A DNA stretch of 64,000 nucleotides from Tractidigestivibacter scatoligenes (lineage in GTDB: Bacteria > Actinomycetota > Coriobacteriia > Coriobacteriales > Atopobiaceae): assembly GCF_001494635.1 (NCBI RefSeq), contig NZ_LOJF01000009.1, positions 310,001 through 374,000 on the forward strand, in the 5' to 3' direction. Under the pieces are notes generated by a model that was not told the origin of the DNA, did no database searches, and saw nothing but the letters and a program-made list of their open reading frames with translations. Shown in pieces: positions 7,233 through 64,000 of the stretch (positions are counted from its first letter, which is position 1; every line of letters starts with the position of its first letter). The position numbers and the translations under genes are program-made.

Positions 7233-7990
7233 GGCTCTTCGACGCCCACGTGCACCTTGACTTCTACGCAAACGCACCGCAGGTGGCAGCGCAGGCACAG
7301 GAATTTGGGCTCTCGTTTCTCGCCTGCACGGTGACGCCAGCGGGCTATCTTTGCGCGGCGCAGGAGCTTGCCGACGCACCGGGGGTCCATCTTGCCGCTG
7401 GCGCCCATCCCTGGTGGATCGCAGACGGTCGCATTGCCGAGAAGGACGTTGACACGCTGGTCTCCATATTGCCTGAACTGCGCTTTGTTGGCGAGGTTGG
7501 CCTGGACTTCTCGCCAGCGCACGTGGGCGAGGGAACGCAACGCGCTCAGGTTTCGGCCTTCGAGCGCATCATGCGCATCTGCGCCGAGACGAGCGACCCC
7601 TCGTGCCCCAAGATCGTCTCCATACACTCCGTGCGCTCGACAGACGTGGTGCTCGACGTGTTGGAGCGCACGGGCGCCGTCAGGTCCTGCCGTTGTATAT
7701 TCCACTGGTTCTCCGGAAGGCCAGAGGAGCTGTGGCGCGCCGCCCGCATGGGGTGCCACTTCTCGTTTGGCGAGCACTCCCTTGCAACCAGGCGCGGGCG
7801 CGAGTACGTGCGCGAGGTGCCCTCAGAGCTGCTGCTCACCGAGACCGACCTCCCCGCAGGCGAGAAGGTCTTGGGCAGCGCAGAAGAGATCTCCTCGTCA
7901 CTCGAGCGGGCGATAGCGAAGGCGTCAGAGGTGCGCGGCGAGGACGTGGCTGCTCTGGCAGCCACGAATGCCGCCGCCCTTCTCGCATGA
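7229..7990 (+). CDS. TatD-family metal-dependent hydrolase
   Basis: Amidohydrolase-fold hydrolase related to TatD nucleases. Metal ligands are visible in order: DAHVHLD at the N-terminus, GAHPWW, GEVGLDF (bridging Glu), IHSVRS, FHWFSG and LTETDLP. At 253 residues it has normal family length. The ATG overlaps the tcdA stop (ATGA), with GGGGGGA upstream. Its TGA stop is supplied by the first, partial copy of the ATGAGACAAAGG repeat. Many TatD proteins are 3'-5' DNases, but the substrate here cannot be read from the sequence. Confidence 0.88.
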   Translation: MRLFDAHVHLDFYANAPQVAAQAQEFGLSFLACTVTPAGYLCAAQELADAPGVHLAAGAHPWWIADGRIAEKDVDTLVSILPELRFVGEVGLDFSPAHVGEGTQRAQVSAFERIMRICAETSDPSCPKIVSIHSVRSTDVVLDVLERTGAVRSCRCIFHWFSGRPEELWRAARMGCHFSFGEHSLATRRGREYVREVPSELLLTETDLPAGEKVLGSAEEISSSLERAIAKASEVRGEDVAALAATNAAALLA

Positions 7991-8029
7991 GACAAAGGCA
8001 TGAGACAAAGGGACTGTCCCTTTGTCTCT
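7987..8029. repeat. Palindromic ATGAGACAAAGGGA repeat, copy 2, with an extra half copy
   Basis: A half copy (7987-7998) is directly followed by a nearly full palindrome (8000-8029). The half copy supplies the TGA stop of the tatD-like gene. Confidence 0.9.
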
Positions 8030-20868: not shown

Positions 20869-21709
20869 CAACCCCAGACCCCCTTAGCTTGCCTAGGTAA
20901 TAGTCAATCGCTTTCTTTGTCTGCTCGTTCTCCTCTTTGGGGATATTGTACTGCTCCTCAGAATCCAAGAGGTACATCTGAGCATCGCGTTCCCGCAGGT
21001 TGCGCATGGTTTCCGCGTCAAACTCCGAGTAGTCGCCACGCTGTGACTGCCAGAAGTGAAAGACCTCCTCGAGAACCTCTGACGTTGTTGCATCGTTCCT
21101 CAGGATGATGGTGTCTCCTACTGCGGAGGCCCCAGCGCCCATCTTGTCCAGATGGTCCTCCCACTCCTTGTCTCCTCGTATTACCTTCCCGCCATGTCTC
21201 TCGACGTAGTTCTTCTGCGAGTTGTACAGGGCGTCGTTGACGACCTTCACTCTGCGGCGCGGCTTGTCCTGCTTCCTTGTAAGCTCTACGGCTTGCCTTA
21301 GCGCCTCCTGCTGCTCTGCCCTGGTCATCGACGGGAAGTCGCGGCCGGTCCTGCCGTCGGCGTTGAGCTGTGACACGATGCGCCTTCGCAGCTGCGTCTT
21401 GCTGACGCCTGCCCTCTGTGCGGCCCTCTCGGTCGCCGGCGTGTCCATGAACTCCTTCAGGCTCCGGCCGCTCGGCTTTGGCCTCTTGGAGTCGCGGCCC
21501 GCCTTCCAGTCCTCGTAGCTGGTCTCAAGCTTGGAATCGTTGCGGTCCTCGAAGGCGTCGTAGCCGGGCATGGAGGCAACCAGCGTGCAGCGGCAGTTCC
21601 ACACCTCCGAGGCCGGCCCCGTGGGGTCTCCCGGGTAGCGCAGGCCGTTGCTGAACCGGCCGTCGTCGCCCACAAGGAGGCACAGATTGCCTCTTCCCAG
21701 AAACCTCAC
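20834..21709 (-). CDS. 5'-truncated MuF-type phage head protein with a toxin-like C-terminal domain
   Basis: The first 50 residues carry the MuF/gpF head-morphogenesis C-terminal motif: DGRFSNGLRYPGDPTG followed by WNCRCTLV. The rest of the capsid-assembly domain is absent and the only start, GTG 21709, lies inside an inverted repeat, so the 5' end has been replaced. After a charged linker (residues 60-165) comes a separate C-terminal domain of about 120 residues. It contains EEVFHFWQ, resembling a zinc-protease HExxH with the first His changed to Glu, followed by helices rich in Glu/Arg. MuF proteins carrying C-terminal toxins are known in prophages; the activity here is not identified. Confidence 0.65.
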   Translation of the reverse strand: MRFLGRGNLCLLVGDDGRFSNGLRYPGDPTGPASEVWNCRCTLVASMPGYDAFEDRNDSKLETSYEDWKAGRDSKRPKPSGRSLKEFMDTPATERAAQRAGVSKTQLRRRIVSQLNADGRTGRDFPSMTRAEQQEALRQAVELTRKQDKPRRRVKVVNDALYNSQKNYVERHGGKVIRGDKEWEDHLDKMGAGASAVGDTIILRNDATTSEVLEEVFHFWQSQRGDYSEFDAETMRNLRERDAQMYLLDSEEQYNIPKEENEQTKKAIDYYLGKLRGSGVDENTGLHRNQR

Positions 21710-21796
21710 ACGTGTTGTTTCTTATTTGATTTTGTCAGCAGACTAACAGGGATTTTCTCGCAACAGATAAGAATAGAAACAACACGTGTGAGGTTT
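21701..21796. repeat. 96-bp inverted repeat with 22-bp perfect arms
   Basis: Arms 21701-21722 and 21775-21796 are perfect reverse complements (each containing CACACGTGTTGT) around a 52-bp AT-richer centre. The left arm contains the apparent start of the truncated MuF gene. Size and form suggest a miniature transposon-like element or a recombination-site remnant. Confidence 0.85.
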
Positions 21797-21835
21797 AGGC
21801 GAGGCCGCAGCAACACAAAAGGCGTCTTCGCTAAG

Positions 21836-32686: not shown

Positions 32687-32861
32687 GGTTGCTCCCATCT
32701 GCGGTGAATGACGTGCAAAATAACGTGCGGCACTTTAGTACGATGGAGTACAGGTGTACAGAATAGCCGCGACTTGCCCCACGTTCAACACTTTCAGCTG
32801 CCATGCATCCTTCGCTTAACAATCGGGGCATGGCGTTGCCGGCGCTGTCACCGACGCAGTT

Positions 32862-32931
32862 GCTGTTGAGAAGATTTCGGACGAAATCTGCGGCGAGCGG
32901 GCCCCAAAGTGTCGAAATAATTCTCAACAGC
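32862..32931. repeat. 70-bp stem-loop A
   Basis: Perfect 11-bp arms GCTGTTGAGAA/TTCTCAACAGC around a 48-nt loop, which itself holds the hairpin GATTTCG-GA-CGAAATC. It is one of three large stem-loops in the 790-bp gap 32687-33476, which otherwise contains only a KpnI-like palindrome TGGGGTACCCCA (about 33072-33083) and no credible gene. Confidence 0.8.
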
Positions 32932-33176
32932 GCATGAAGAGGTGGCCACGCGCCGGACGAGGCGGGCAGACTTCCGGTTGGCAGCAGTTTTGATAAGACT
33001 CTTTATGTGCCTGCAGCGCGGTGGCAATTCTCTGACCTGCGATTTATCAGACTTCAAATCTGTTTGTACTTGGGGTACCCCAGAAAAACAGTTGCCCAAC
33101 CGTCGATTCCTGCCAAGGCTGATCTGGCGAGCATCCAGCCGGCGCCAAATATGATCTGTCCGAATCGCGTGCTGGC

Positions 33177-33246
33177 GCTGTCGGGCAGTTTCCGAACGGA
33201 GTTTCCCTTCAGCAAGACACGGAACATCCTATTTCTGCCCGACAGC
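33177..33246. repeat. 70-bp stem-loop B
   Basis: Perfect 12-bp arms GCTGTCGGGCAG/CTGCCCGACAGC around a 46-nt loop that contains TTCCG/CGGAA. The arms differ in sequence from stem-loop A, but the geometry is the same. Confidence 0.8.
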
Positions 33247-33304
33247 GACGGAGAGCAGAGAATGCCGCCGCGTACGGCAGGCACAGCGGTCCGACAGTTG
33301 TCCA

Positions 33305-33378
33305 AACTACGCACGGTGAGAGCCGGGCCGCGCAAAAGCCCAGCAATCCACAAACTTGAAACGCGACCGTGCGTAGTT
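33305..33378. repeat. 74-bp stem-loop C
   Basis: Perfect 13-bp arms AACTACGCACGGT/ACCGTGCGTAGTT around a 48-nt loop that contains a GCCGGGC/GCCCAGC pairing. It ends 98 bp before the Nudix gene. Confidence 0.8.
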
Positions 33379-33476
33379 CTGTAGTCGCAAATGGGTAGCA
33401 AGGCGCTGCTGCTGAACCTGAAGAAAAAACCAGCTATGGTAGGGAGCAGAGGAGACAGTCGGACCAGGAGGAACGC

Positions 33477-55662: not shown

Positions 55663-55733
55663 TGTTGCTGAGAAGGAAATCGACGTTTTGCTTGGCTCCA
55701 AAGGACTAAAACGTCCAAATTGTTCTCAACAGC
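55663..55733. repeat. 71-bp stem-loop D
   Basis: Arms GTTGCTGAGAA and TTCTCAACAGC (two mismatched positions) around a 48-nt loop containing GACGTTTT/AAAACGTC. Same arms as stem-loop A at 32862, 22.8 kb away, and the inner hairpin resembles the 18.06-kb palindromes. The rest of 55590-55818 shows only a plausible TATGGT -10 box before the next gene. Confidence 0.8.
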
Positions 55734-55818
55734 ACCTTCCGGACGGGCCGGCACCCTCCGCTGGGGTCAACTGCGCTATGGTGGTGGCCATTCGGCACCG
55801 CAAACCCAGGAGGAACCC

Positions 55819-56940
55819 ATGCGCTGGCCCATCACGCTCACAACGGCACACCTTGTCATGCGTCCCTGGCGCTTGGATGACGCGGAGGCGGTCTATCGCT
55901 ACGCGCGCGACCCCGAGGTTGGTCTTCGGGCAGGCTGGGCCCCACACGCGTCGCTCGAGGAGAGCAAGACGGTCCTAAAAGACATTCTCATGGCACCGGA
56001 TTCCTGGGCAATCACACTGCGTGAGCGAGAAGGAATGCTGGCGGACGAGGCCGTGGGCGCCATCGCCCTGCGCCACCAGGCCGCAAATGCCGCAGACCCC
56101 CTCCCCGTACACGAGGCCGAGATTGGCTACTGGATTGCCCGTCCCTGGTGGGGCCACGGCTACATGACGGAGGCCGTCCGAGAGGTGCTGCGCTACGCTT
56201 TCCTCGTGGAGAACCTCGCCGCCGTGCGCGCGAGCTACTTCGAGGGCAACGAGGGCAGCCGCCGCGTCCAGGAGAAGGCCGGACTGCGCCCGCACTACCA
56301 CATCGAGGGAGTCGTCGACCACCTCGGCGCCACCCACACGGAGCGCGTACAGAGCATCACGCGTCAGGAGTGGGAAACCTCACTCGCCGCAGATCCCACT
56401 GATGCCGGAACCATCGCACGCCAGCAGTCGGAGGCGGCCGGCATCATCGACCGCCTGCCGCTCATCGCGCTCGTGCGGTCCGGCGGGCAGACCGGCGCGG
56501 ACCGTGGCGGACTTGATGCCGCGCGCGAGCATAACGTGCCCATCTGCGGCTGGTGCCCGCCCGGGGGCCTTGCCGAGGACCTGCCCAAGCCGCCAGGCCT
56601 TCTCGCCCTGTACCCCGAGCTCCGCGAAGGACCCAGCCAAGGCTACGTCGAGCGGACGGCGTGGAACGTGCGCGACAGCCACGCAACGCTCATCGTCTCC
56701 CCCGGTGGGCTCGAGCCCAGAAGCGGAACGGAGATGACCGCCATCTTCGCCGAGCGCATGGGTCGTCCGGTGCTTGTTCTGGAGGGCTCCAACGTAAGCG
56801 AGGCCGCGACGGAGGCGCTGGCGTGGCTCCGTTCGCTGGGGGCAAACGCCCTGACGCTCAACGTTGCGGGCCCGCGCGAGTCAAAGATGCCCGGCGTCTA
56901 CGAGCTCACGCACGACATCGTGGCAAACGTCCTGGGATGA
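55819..56940 (+). CDS. GNAT acetyltransferase fused to a YpsA/MoCo-carrier-like domain
   Basis: 373 residues in two parts. Residues 1-180 are a RimJ/RimL-type N-acetyltransferase (IGYWIARPWWGHGYMTEAVREVLRY acetyl-CoA region, then SRRVQEKAGL). Residues 215-373 resemble the putative molybdenum-carrier/YpsA family of the SLOG superfamily: SGGQTGADRGGLDAA, WCPPGGLAEDLPKP, then SPGGLEPRSGTEMTAIFAE, i.e. a Rossmann-like nucleotide-binding site. A 30-residue linker joins them. ATG 55819 has AGGAGG. Both roles are open; the fusion suggests acetylation coupled to nucleotide or cofactor sensing. Its TGA lies in the palindromic repeat. Confidence 0.8.
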   Translation: MRWPITLTTAHLVMRPWRLDDAEAVYRYARDPEVGLRAGWAPHASLEESKTVLKDILMAPDSWAITLREREGMLADEAVGAIALRHQAANAADPLPVHEAEIGYWIARPWWGHGYMTEAVREVLRYAFLVENLAAVRASYFEGNEGSRRVQEKAGLRPHYHIEGVVDHLGATHTERVQSITRQEWETSLAADPTDAGTIARQQSEAAGIIDRLPLIALVRSGGQTGADRGGLDAAREHNVPICGWCPPGGLAEDLPKPPGLLALYPELREGPSQGYVERTAWNVRDSHATLIVSPGGLEPRSGTEMTAIFAERMGRPVLVLEGSNVSEAATEALAWLRSLGANALTLNVAGPRESKMPGVYELTHDIVANVLG

Positions 56941-56967
56941 GACAAAGGGAAACTCCCTTTGTCTCAT
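56937..56967. repeat. Palindromic ATGAGACAAAGGGA repeat, copy 5
   Basis: Shared by two convergent genes: its plus-strand TGA ends the GNAT fusion gene and its minus-strand TGA ends the alpha-galactosidase gene. Confidence 0.92.
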
Positions 56968-58550
56968 CCCAACGCGCGCGAGAAGAGAGCGCGTTGGTCG
57001 GTGTCCCAAAGCGACATGTCGTCCGAGGTGAAGAGCACACCCCCAAGCGTGGAGTCCGCCTCAAGGAGCTCTGAGCGCTGCTCGTCCGTAAGTCGCACGT
57101 CAGGTCGCAGGAAGAAGACGTCAGGGTCGCACCTAAACGCCCGTCCGTCCAGATGCGCACGTCCGCGTGTGTTTGCCAGGCTGTTCTTGGTGCTCACGCG
57201 CTCGCGACCGGTACCTCGCATGTAGGCTGGTCCGTCCCAGTCGAGTCCCACGTCACAGCCAATGCGACAGAACTCCGTCCTGCCAAGGGCAGATCCAACA
57301 GGAACGCCACAGAGGTCAAACCACGTGCCTGACACCGCGCTCTGGCGCAGGAGGTCAAGCGCATCTGCCATGAGCTGCCCGCGGTTCATCCCGCCATGCG
57401 GGACCATGCATGCCGCGTAGAGAAAGTCGCACTTGAGAAGCGAGAAGCCCCACTCTCCGGTGAGCGTTGCCATGACACGCGCCACGTAGTCGCGCACCTC
57501 GGGGTTACGCGTGTCGAGCGCAACGTGGCCAGACCAGTGAGAGCCAGTCACCACAAGCTCGCCCTTCTCGTCATGAAGAAGCCAGTCCGGATGCGCCGAG
57601 AAGAGCTGGGACTTTCGCTCGCACACGAAGGGCGCGACCCAGATGCCTGGCATGAGCCCACGCTCGCGCGCGGCAGCAGCCACCGGCGAGAGGCCATGCG
57701 GGAACTTCTCGCCATCTGGATGCAGCCAGTCGCCCACACGCGTGTAGCCGTCGTCCACCTGAAACGTGGGTCGGCGCTCCCCAAGCTCAAAGCTCCCCAG
57801 ACAGTCAGCAAGCGCATTCAGGTCATGCAGCAGGCACTGCTCCGAGATGTCCGTGTAGTGCCGATACCAGCTGGTATAGCCAACCAGCGGCGAGCAGGGC
57901 AACGCGCAAACGCCACAGAGCGCAAGCCAGCGCTCGACGGCCTCGCCGACGCTCCCGGCACACACGATGGCAAGCCCCAGAAGGCAGCGCCGCACGCCCG
58001 CCGCAACGGGGGCGGCCGGCGGCTCCTTGCTCACAAGGAGCGCCTCTGCGGGCAGGTCCTCGCGGATGAGCGTCATCCCCGTGTCCTCTCCAAGCGAGCC
58101 CACCAGGGCAACCTCGCCATCCCGCCGCAGGTAGCCATAGGTAAAGCCATGCTGGTGACCGGGTCTCTCGTCCTCCTCCACAAAGCGGTAGTCGCCCGAG
58201 GCGTCAAGCACCCAATGGCGTATGGCCACGCGTGGCACGGAGAAGTTGCGCATGCGGTCGCGCGGACTGCGCTCCACGGAGTCTGTCCAGGAGTTGTAGC
58301 CGTTCAGGTAGAGCGCCGTTGCCTCACCCAGCGCAGCGGGCAGCGTTGCCTCCACGGCGTCGATCACAACCTCACGCCGGGGCTCCGCGCACAGCCGCCA
58401 GCACTCCCCGTCGCGCACAAGTGAGATACCGAGCGTTGCCGCATCCGCACCCGTCACCAGGCCAGACGGCTGTACGTGGGCAACGCGCCCCTGGTCAGAC
58501 GCCACGTGCCAGCACACACAGAAGGTAGGTTCGCCGAGAAGCGCCGTCAC
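56964..58550 (-). CDS. Alpha-galactosidase-like glycoside hydrolase (GH36 type)
   Basis: 528 residues resembling GH36 alpha-galactosidases: GYNSWT near 85, the barrel start QVDDGYTRVGDW, GIWVAPFVC, the nucleophile Asp in LLKCDFLYAA near 371, and the acid/base Asp in RIGCDVGLDW near 433. It is shorter than 700-residue GH36 enzymes, lacking much of the N-terminal sandwich and C-terminal domain. No signal peptide: intracellular. GTG 58550 overlaps the transporter stop (GTGA), so uptake and hydrolysis are coupled. Likely substrates are melibiose-type galactosides. Confidence 0.87.
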   Translation of the reverse strand: MTALLGEPTFCVCWHVASDQGRVAHVQPSGLVTGADAATLGISLVRDGECWRLCAEPRREVVIDAVEATLPAALGEATALYLNGYNSWTDSVERSPRDRMRNFSVPRVAIRHWVLDASGDYRFVEEDERPGHQHGFTYGYLRRDGEVALVGSLGEDTGMTLIREDLPAEALLVSKEPPAAPVAAGVRRCLLGLAIVCAGSVGEAVERWLALCGVCALPCSPLVGYTSWYRHYTDISEQCLLHDLNALADCLGSFELGERRPTFQVDDGYTRVGDWLHPDGEKFPHGLSPVAAAARERGLMPGIWVAPFVCERKSQLFSAHPDWLLHDEKGELVVTGSHWSGHVALDTRNPEVRDYVARVMATLTGEWGFSLLKCDFLYAACMVPHGGMNRGQLMADALDLLRQSAVSGTWFDLCGVPVGSALGRTEFCRIGCDVGLDWDGPAYMRGTGRERVSTKNSLANTRGRAHLDGRAFRCDPDVFFLRPDVRLTDEQRSELLEADSTLGGVLFTSDDMSLWDTDQRALFSRALG

Positions 58551-59965: not shown

Positions 59966-59996
59966 ATGAGACAAAGGGAAACTCCCTTTGTCTCAT
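59966..59996. repeat. Palindromic ATGAGACAAAGGGA repeat, copy 6
   Basis: Supplies the TGA stop of the tetR-like gene on the minus strand and lies 18 bp before the GPH start, so it separates two genes read in the same direction. Confidence 0.9.
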
Positions 59997-62306: not shown

Positions 62307-62314
62307 CACCCGCG

Positions 62315-62346
62315 ATGAGACAAAGGGAAAACTCCCTTTGTCTCAT
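62315..62346. repeat. Palindromic ATGAGACAAAGGGA repeat, copy 7
   Basis: 32-bp version with a 4-bp centre, between convergent genes; its minus-strand TGA is the stop codon of the UbiB-like gene. Confidence 0.9.
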
Positions 62347-64000
62347 CGCCTGCGGCGACGGTCGTCCTTGATGATGCTGCGGGCAACCCATATGCCCAGG
62401 ATGAGGGCAGCAAGGTAGCCAACGAAGCCGATGATGGGAATGCCAAAGATAACGGGCTGGATGCGTGCGTAGTAGACCACCGACGAGCCAATGAAGAGGC
62501 CTGCCACCATCACGCTCATCGAGAGCCTGTTGGCAATGTGGGCAAAGTCGTTGATGGGGTCCTCTGTTCCCGCCACGTCCAGGTTAAGCCGCAGCTGGCC
62601 GCGGGTGAGCATCTTCATGGCAAGGTCCGCCTGCGAGGCCGCGCCGAGAAGTCCATGCGCGGCGCGCGTTCCCTCGCGCGCGAAGCCCTTGACCTCGTGC
62701 TTGATGAGGTCCTCTGGCGTGGTGTGAGCCTTGATGTGGGCAGTGATGATCTCGATGATCGAGACACCAGGGAGAAACTCGTCGACCACGCCCTCGAGCG
62801 TCACGAGGGAGCGTGCCAGCATGGTGACCGTGCCGGGAAGCTCGACGCCGTTCTTTCTCGCCATAGAGATGAGAGAGTTCACGAAGGAGCCAACGTCAAG
62901 GTCTGAGAGGTCAGCCTCGCCGTAGTCGGCAATAATCATGTCGAGATCGTCCAGGAGGTGCGCGTGGTCGACGGCGGAAGTGTCGGATATCGAGAAGCGC
63001 AGGAGACCGTCGGCTAGCCCGGCAGAGTCCCTCAGTGCGACGGCCTTCACCATGTCCGACATGGCCTTGCGGTCATGCGAGGAGAGACGCCCCATGATTC
63101 CCAGGTCGATGTAGACGATCTGCCCGCCGCGGACGATGAGGTTGCCGGGATGGGGGTCCGCGTGGAAGAAGCCGTCATCGATCATCTGGCGCGTGTAGTT
63201 GTCGACGAGCTTGGTGCCTATCTCCTCGAGGTCGTAGCCGGCAGCGACCAGCTTTGCCGTCTTGTCGATGGGAATGCCCTCGATGTAGTCCATGACCACG
63301 ACGTGCTTGGTGCAGAGCTTGGGATAGGGCTTGGGGCAGTCGACAAACTTGCAGTCCGCGTTGTTGCGCCTAAACTCCTCGAGGTTTCTGGCTTCCACAA
63401 GGAAGTCTGTCTCGTCGCGGAAGGACTGCCAAAGCTCGTCCACTACCGACTGCATGTCCAGGAACTGGCTCCCCGACATGAAACGGTCCATGAACCCCAC
63501 GAGCGAGCGCATGATGGCGATGTCCTGCGCCATGGTCTCCTGGACGTGTGGTCGCTGCACCTTGATGGCGACCATCTCGCCCGTGACGAGACGTGCCTTG
63601 TGCACCTGGGCCACGGAGGCGGAGCCCAAAGGAACATCGTCGATGGCGTCGAAGATGTCCTCGATGGGAGTGTCGTACTCGTCTCGCAGCGCCTGGAGAA
63701 CCATGTCGCGGTCCATGGGCTCGACATCCGAGCGGAGCTTGGTAAGCTCTCGACAGAAACTCTCGGGCAGTATCTCCGAGCGCATGGAGAGAATCTGTCC
63801 CGCCTTCACGAAGGTGGGGCCAAGCTCCTCGAGCATGTGACGCAGACTCTTTGGCGTGAGGCCATGGAAGATGTCATAGCGACGCACAATCGAGAGAATC
63901 TCGCGCACACGCTTGAGCCGCGAGCTGCGCGACGACTCGTACCCGTCGGACGTCTTGCTGCGACCGCCAAACAAACCGATGGTCTGTGCGTCGTCGTCCT
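62343..64000 (-). CDS. UbiB/AarF (ABC1) family atypical kinase, 5' end beyond the window
   Basis: Protein-kinase-like ATPase of the UbiB family. In order it has the diagnostic KxGQ motif FVKAGQILSMRSEILP, the Ala-rich loop GSASVAQVHKA, VAIKVQRP (ATP Lys), ARNLEEF, HADPHPGNL and YIDLGIMGRL, then two C-terminal membrane helices (residues about 490-540) usual for the family. The family assists quinone or lipid metabolism. The frame is open to the window edge; TTG 63974 is the last start codon visible but has no ribosome site, so the true start is probably outside. Confidence 0.92.
   Translation of the reverse strand, partial: DDDAQTIGLFGGRSKTSDGYESSRSSRLKRVREILSIVRRYDIFHGLTPKSLRHMLEELGPTFVKAGQILSMRSEILPESFCRELTKLRSDVEPMDRDMVLQALRDEYDTPIEDIFDAIDDVPLGSASVAQVHKARLVTGEMVAIKVQRPHVQETMAQDIAIMRSLVGFMDRFMSGSQFLDMQSVVDELWQSFRDETDFLVEARNLEEFRRNNADCKFVDCPKPYPKLCTKHVVVMDYIEGIPIDKTAKLVAAGYDLEEIGTKLVDNYTRQMIDDGFFHADPHPGNLIVRGGQIVYIDLGIMGRLSSHDRKAMSDMVKAVALRDSAGLADGLLRFSISDTSAVDHAHLLDDLDMIIADYGEADLSDLDVGSFVNSLISMARKNGVELPGTVTMLARSLVTLEGVVDEFLPGVSIIEIITAHIKAHTTPEDLIKHEVKGFAREGTRAAHGLLGAASQADLAMKMLTRGQLRLNLDVAGTEDPINDFAHIANRLSMSVMVAGLFIGSSVVYYARIQPVIFGIPIIGFVGYLAALILGIWVARSIIKDDRRRRR

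Follow-up and report, generated by a model that had tools for sequence, protein, structure and literature searches.

Dispersed hairpin elements in Tractidigestivibacter and their association with genes for predicted Vsr-fold nucleases

Introduction

To our knowledge, the main example of dispersed palindromic repeats that have an enzyme of their own is the REP/RAYT system, in which the enzyme is an HUH transposase. The RAYT transposases are thought to spread REPINs in trans. A REPIN is a hairpin unit with conserved ends and a spacer constrained mainly in length, in which compensatory changes are common (PMC3116915), and the RAYT is a single-copy cognate enzyme that has co-evolved with its repeat (PMC8266576). 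Inverted repeats are also recognized by the AbiEi antitoxins, which bind such sequences in their own promoters (PMC7319586).

Here we describe hairpin elements in a stretch of 64,000 nucleotides of the Tractidigestivibacter scatoligenes genome (contig NZ_LOJF01000009.1, positions 310,001 to 374,000; hereafter the window). A preliminary description had pointed out a cluster of stem-loops with constant loop length and changing arms, and had proposed structured RNAs or single-strand recombination sites such as integron attC, with integron-integrase or IS200/IS605-type genes to be looked for elsewhere. The elements resemble the REPIN/RAYT system as dispersed intergenic hairpins of ~70-100 bp with a constrained spacer (PMC3116915, PMC2817692, PMC8266576), and also in their compensatory changes, in the presence of several families per genome, in slow turnover and in having one single-copy enzyme gene per family, flanked by its repeats. 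They differ in that the GTAG-type tag was not found in these elements, that the copies bracketing a gene are either direct or inverted, that the RAYTs of these genomes own other repeats, and that the partner protein has a Vsr/EDxHD-type predicted fold, is DUF559-like and carries an AbiEi-like half, instead of being an HUH Y1 transposase. Because the defining enzyme is absent from these pairs, they are not members of REP/RAYT. Among open-access papers, none joining DUF559 with inverted repeats was found.

Results

The gap under study is flanked by divergent genes, which start at ~32698 (minus strand) and ~33477 (plus strand). Three perfect inverted repeats lie there within 517 bp: repeat A at 32862-32872/32921-32931 (11-bp arms, loop of 48 nt), repeat B at 33176-33188/33235-33247 (13-bp arms, loop of 46 nt) and repeat C at 33305-33317/33366-33378 (13-bp arms, loop of 48 nt). 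The positions and loop lengths agree with those described before, but the arms are of 11, 13 and 13 bp and not of 11, 12 and 13 bp. To estimate how often such repeats arise by chance, the 64-kb window was shuffled 300 times with its dinucleotides preserved, and inverted repeats were counted if their arms had 11 bp or more and their loops 44-50 nt. The shuffled windows contained a mean of 0.17 such repeats per 64 kb, and three or more were observed in 0.3% of the shuffles; two within 517 bp occurred in none of the 300 shuffled windows. A chance origin of the A, B and C stem-loops was thereby rejected, and the reservation that random sequence might yield such repeats at this frequency does not hold.

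Element A (32861..32933, plus strand) is a 73-nt hairpin with A-type arms GCTGTTGAGAA/TTCTCAACAGC, and element B (33176..33248, plus strand) carries B-type arms CGCTGTCGGGCAG/CTGCCCGACAGCG. The arms of B had been regarded as unrelated to those of A, but the two elements align over all 73 nt (CTG-TTGAGAAG and CTG-TCGGGCAG, inner GGAC...GTC). As judged from the family alignment, in which the arms are CTGTTGAGAAG or CTGTCGGGCAG with inner GGAC...GTC, A and B belong to a single family that has two types of arm, the changes in the arms being compensated. Element C (33303..33381, plus strand), for which the lack of relationship to A was confirmed, belongs to a separate family with arms CTACGCACGGT in the alignment; it is a 79-nt hairpin (AACTACGCACGGT/ACCGTGCGTAGTT) with a conserved loop, AAAAGCCCAG...CACAAA. 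The copy at 55663 (element D, 55663..55735, plus strand), previously listed as a fourth repeat with arms akin to those of A, is a genuine solitary A-family member, but its outer arm is mismatched rather than perfect; the same site is filled in the closest species. Two further elements had escaped notice: M (32971..33116, plus strand), situated between A and B, with 146 bp, terminal inverted repeats CCGGTTGG.../...CCAACCG and an inner hairpin, and E (21700..21797, plus strand), a 98-nt hairpin with 22-bp arms AAACCTCACACGTGTTGTTTCT/AGAAACAACACGTGTGAGGTTT and a loop of 52. The observation of stem-loops is real and beyond chance, but their kind had been misread.

Eight Tractidigestivibacter species were sampled, including the window's own genome (G000, 2.47 Mb) and its closest relative (G002). 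With the A/B/C gap as a blastn query, 52 matches were obtained in G000. A genome-wide covariance-model search, as suggested beforehand, found dozens of copies in G000 (at least 20 of A/B, ~13 of C and ~13 of M), and the doubt whether any further copies exist was removed; as the raw match numbers include both strands of one palindrome, the counts given are of distinct places in the match lists. Several further families are represented by ~5-8 solitary copies each in G000. By covariance models, A, C and M copies are present across the eight species, save that A is missing from one. The order A-M-B-C is repeated at other loci, and M copies often face each other at short distance, head to head, without an intervening gene (L017, G000:C9:568095-568420; L022; L052; L115). 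As short non-coding palindromic modules, sometimes arranged in ordered composites (A-M-B-C), the elements are like MITE-like and modular repeats (RU, BOX), from which they differ in that their partner genes do not encode DDE transposases and in that target-site duplication was not found.

Copies are present or absent between species. At the same divergent gap, the eight species carry A-M-B-C, A-M-B, A-C, A-M, M-C or M alone. For nearly all solitary copies checked, the same site is filled in both G000 and G002. As the solitary copies are mostly common to these two genomes, turnover is slow, and movement is slow or past. Recent transposition, which would show as numerous unoccupied sites in G002, was rejected on the same observation. 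Neither target-site duplication nor a clean insertion junction was detected at the sites examined, where junctions are blurred by divergence.

The pairing of the arms was analyzed in the 20-bp stem of the A family. In the alignment, 84% of the cells were paired, versus 33-50% when the partners were slid, and 38 cells were changed on both sides versus 22.7 ± 3.8 in shuffles, a number that is not a probability because the sequences are related. At one orthologous site (L029 versus L208), A-type arms are found in G000 and B-type arms in G002, both sides having changed. The constant geometry with changing arms that had been reported is real, and the arm changes are compensated. A selection-free source of such changes could be gene conversion between copies or the correction of quasi-palindromes. 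Stability exceeded that of shuffles in 22 of 26 foldable repeat families (z < -2, median -5.9), versus 2 of 45 control segments. A common loop core across families (CCCAG/CGCAG beside AAAA) appeared suggestive by eye, but was not significant in an unbiased k-mer test; an EM motif result for this core is not claimed, because it is inflated by internal palindromes.

The covariation of the A stem, together with that of the inner hairpin of M, might be taken to mean that the stems belong to a transcribed non-coding or untranslated RNA. An RNA stem is expected to favour G-U (G-T) over A-C mismatches. The stems of 59 copies contained 60 G-T versus 60 A-C mismatches, and because the two are equally frequent, the stem constraint looks like that of DNA. 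No Rfam covariance model matched these elements at its gathering score. In addition, the promoter-like sequences on either side of the window elements face outward, so that neither gene's transcript would cover these elements. The structured-RNA reading proposed at first is unsupported by these data, and we consider it very improbable.

Partner genes were reached through facing copies of the same family, ~1.2-1.7 kb apart among the covariance-model matches, for which the intervening DNA was fetched. Pairs of A, C and M enclose three distinct but related proteins of ~340-450 aa. The nucA gene was found in G000 (G000:C1:1010485-1011579, bracketed by A copies), G002, G003 and G007, and nucC in the same four genomes (G000:C10:255232-256398, bracketed by C copies); nucM, bracketed by M copies, was not found in G000 and was seen only in three sister species (G005, G006 and G007). 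The bracketing copies are arranged head to head around the gene in all 11 of the nucA, nucC and nucM loci. A fourth paralog, nucE (G000:C10:184382-185506), is bracketed by E copies in direct orientation in G000, G002 and G003. The bracketing copies of A, C and M are in inverted orientation, those of E, G and J in direct orientation. Families A, C, M and E thus each bracket their own single-copy gene in several Tractidigestivibacter species, and three of the window's families (A, C and E) have the partner gene elsewhere in G000. No nuclease gene bracketed by B-type arms was identified. Families M, G and N are kept in G000, although the respective nuclease gene was not found in this genome. The largest number of M matches (51, both strands counted) was observed in G004 (3.1 Mb), in which no nucM and no A-family copy were found.

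At the nucA locus of G007, the arms contain GAGACG versus the usual GAGAAG. This variant is also present in solitary copies of G007 (L250 on both sides, L249 on the 3' side), and in no listed copy from other species. Two MFS transporter genes sit between one A and one C copy (L111, L112), indicating that ordinary genes, too, can be enclosed by a pair of elements.

One or two Y1-transposase genes exist in seven of the eight genomes, and the geometry of the window's elements is similar to that of REPs or REPINs of such resident (RAYT) transposases and of integron attC sites. Different palindromes, though, are found beside the Y1 genes (TGAGACAAAGGGAC... and CCCCGGCAAYGG...); TGAGACAAAGGGACWGTCCCTTTGTCTCA lies on the two sides of RAYT-1, and palindromes of the CCCCGGCAAYGGAATCCC type on those of RAYT-2. 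No pair of A, B, C, M or E was found to bracket RAYT-1 or RAYT-2 at the RAYT loci, and the gene bracketed by each of A, C, M and E is not of the Y1 kind. Because the RAYTs are flanked by other palindromes, REP/RAYT is considered to be present in these genomes but separate, and the elements are not the REPs of the resident RAYTs. The suggestion of IS200/IS605-type partners fails for the same Y1 genes, and that of attC sites finds neither an attC match in Rfam nor tyrosine recombinases among the partner genes. We give hardly any credence to an origin of the window's elements from RAYT or attC. The expected link to an enzyme does exist; the partner is a probable DNA-processing enzyme, of a class different from those proposed.

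The RAYT-1 palindrome TGAGACAAAGGGACWGTCCCTTTGTCTCA occurs in the window at 7989-8028, 56933-56971, 59966-59996 and 62312-62349, and on both sides of RAYT-1 (L089, G000:C12:89213-89542), apparently as an ordinary REP/RAYT pair. The arms of the RAYT-2 palindrome vary by species, CCCCGGCAAYGG... versus TTACCTGGCAAYGG... (L092, L094, L096, L098, L099), possibly reflecting co-divergence of REP and RAYT.

The architecture of the partner proteins was predicted from an AlphaFold2 model of nucC, based on 65 aligned relatives (mean pLDDT 91.7). For residues 244-362 the best match was I-Bth0305I, a homing endonuclease, by its catalytic domain (Z 7.7, rmsd 2.8 over 97), followed by the Vsr-like NGO0050 (Z 6.8), Vsr (Z 6.3) and TnsA (4.7). 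DUF559 was below the Pfam cut-off in nucC, the best value among the set of proteins being 6.4e-07, and weak matches to REase_MTES_1575 were also obtained. The Z values are middling, yet the top rows agree mutually and are consistent with these weak family matches. E247 and D292 are invariant in 65 of 65 sequences, in line with an active site of PD-(D/E)XK type. The C-terminal domain is thus predicted to adopt the Vsr/EDxHD-homing-endonuclease fold of PD-(D/E)XK type. Residues 11-239 resemble AbiEi weakly (6y8q, Z 4.6, rmsd 4.5), and an AbiEi match was obtained in PADLOC for nucA only (1e-07); the N-terminal half is probably DNA-binding. The proteins share the predicted C-terminal fold and the invariant acidic residues with I-Bth0305I and Vsr, but unlike the EDxHD homing endonucleases and Vsr they include an AbiEi-like half, their genes lie outside introns, and the bracketing hairpins have relatives throughout the genome.

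That the closest fold is the catalytic domain of a homing endonuclease would suit a role in homing, addiction or defence. The nuclease would then cut DNA that it selects itself, and the hairpins, bracketing and dispersed, would serve to mark or protect self DNA or would be left over from cassettes that recombination between the brackets had removed. One site agrees with such loss: G002 carries G-nucG-G in direct orientation (L302, G002:C25:348500-354000), and the orthologous site of G000 (L294, G000:C1:519500-524000) carries one G and no gene, the difference of the gene and one repeat being that expected of direct-repeat recombination. Recombination between the inverted brackets of A, C and M would, however, invert the gene and not delete it, and solitary copies far outnumber the nuclease genes, at sites that are mostly intergenic and varied. 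We regard this role as improbable.

The main rival is suggested by the other half of the protein. The N-terminal region weakly matches AbiEi of the AbiE type IV toxin-antitoxin system, and given that binding to inverted repeats of the own promoter is described for AbiEi (PMC7319586), the hairpins might be operators, by which the AbiEi-like half autoregulates the nuclease gene; the dispersed copies would form a regulon without mobility, and the nuclease half would act elsewhere, for example in defence. By eye, the window elements do sit between two divergent promoter-like sequences. In contrast to AbiE, a nuclease domain is fused on, and the repeats are found on both sides of the gene and genome-wide. 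Copies downstream of the gene, inverted or direct, do not suit an operator, nor does the coming and going of modules at one site across the eight species or the persistence of families where the nuclease gene is absent. Moreover, arm pairing is kept by compensation despite sequence drift, and a plain duplex operator needs none. Taken together, we think an operator role unlikely, although less so than the other alternatives.

A protein profile search gave 6-16 nuclease paralogs per Tractidigestivibacter genome; within Atopobiaceae, 51 of 61 genomes and 24 of 28 genera had matches. Bracketing was called when a common repeat with a score of at least 45 was present on both sides of the gene, the 95th percentile of cross-locus comparisons being 29. 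Within the genus, a repeat was detected on both sides of 34 of 70 paralogs versus 1 of 31 control genes, all controls being other genes of the window; the sole bracketed control gene lies between RAYT-1-type palindromes. About half of the paralogs are without detectable bracketing repeats. Outside the genus, bracketing was observed at 14 of 25 loci in other Atopobiaceae genera, 4 of 10 in a further set of Coriobacteriia and 10 of 19 in other classes of Actinomycetota, fractions that are not population estimates because only the best-scoring loci were examined.

The 50 bracketed Atopobiaceae loci were grouped by similarity into 29 repeat families. In 28 of 30 cases a nuclease and its nearest relative are bracketed by one and the same repeat family, and the identity of the nucleases is 81% within repeat families and 29% between them. 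Several independent tests speak for the partnership between hairpin families and genes of the Vsr fold. Nucleases of ~90% identity were also found with different bracketing families, J and K (L167, L171 and L172 versus L173), which makes these loci a candidate case of recently altered specificity.

Discussion

The stem-loops of the window are probably solitary REPIN-like DNA elements that are processed or spread by cognate nucleases of the Vsr fold. Each family (A/B, C, M, E and several others in the genus) has arms of its own and a nearly fixed length, and one single-copy gene, flanked by two of its copies, goes with it. The nuclease protein would recognize its own hairpin, extruded or single-stranded, and would nick or cut there, and copies would thereby spread slowly in trans between intergenic sites. 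In favour of this reading count the bracketing frequencies, the agreement between nuclease relatedness and repeat family, the stability of the folded repeats, the predicted fold with its invariant acidic residues, the compensated stems with their equal G-T and A-C mismatches, the differences in occupancy between species, the G site included, and the arm variant that the nucA locus and solitary copies of G007 have in common. Against it count the paralogs without detectable brackets, the slow or past movement, the failure to find target-site duplications or clean junctions at the sites examined, the families that persist in G000 where no nuclease gene of theirs was found, and the mixed orientation of the brackets. 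We infer recognition, cleavage and spread in trans by the nuclease protein, and by analogy the hairpin/nuclease pairs may work like REP/RAYT.

A broader proposal, on which we remain evenly divided, is that these pairs constitute an unrecognized parasitic or domesticated system, in which dozens of Actinomycetota proteins with a Vsr/homing-endonuclease fold each co-evolve with a hairpin population that they spread in trans, convergent with REPIN-RAYT but with an unrelated enzyme. Each enzyme brings its own candidate substrate, which opens the claim to direct test. The position that the HUH transposase holds in REP/RAYT is taken here by a non-homologous nuclease fold, and this recurs many times within a genome and across several classes of a phylum. 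Should cleavage and spread be confirmed, it would follow that quite different enzymes can maintain hairpin populations; many anonymous DUF559/AbiEi-like proteins would then have a role, and the Actinomycetota would offer dozens of natural enzyme-hairpin pairs of differing specificity.
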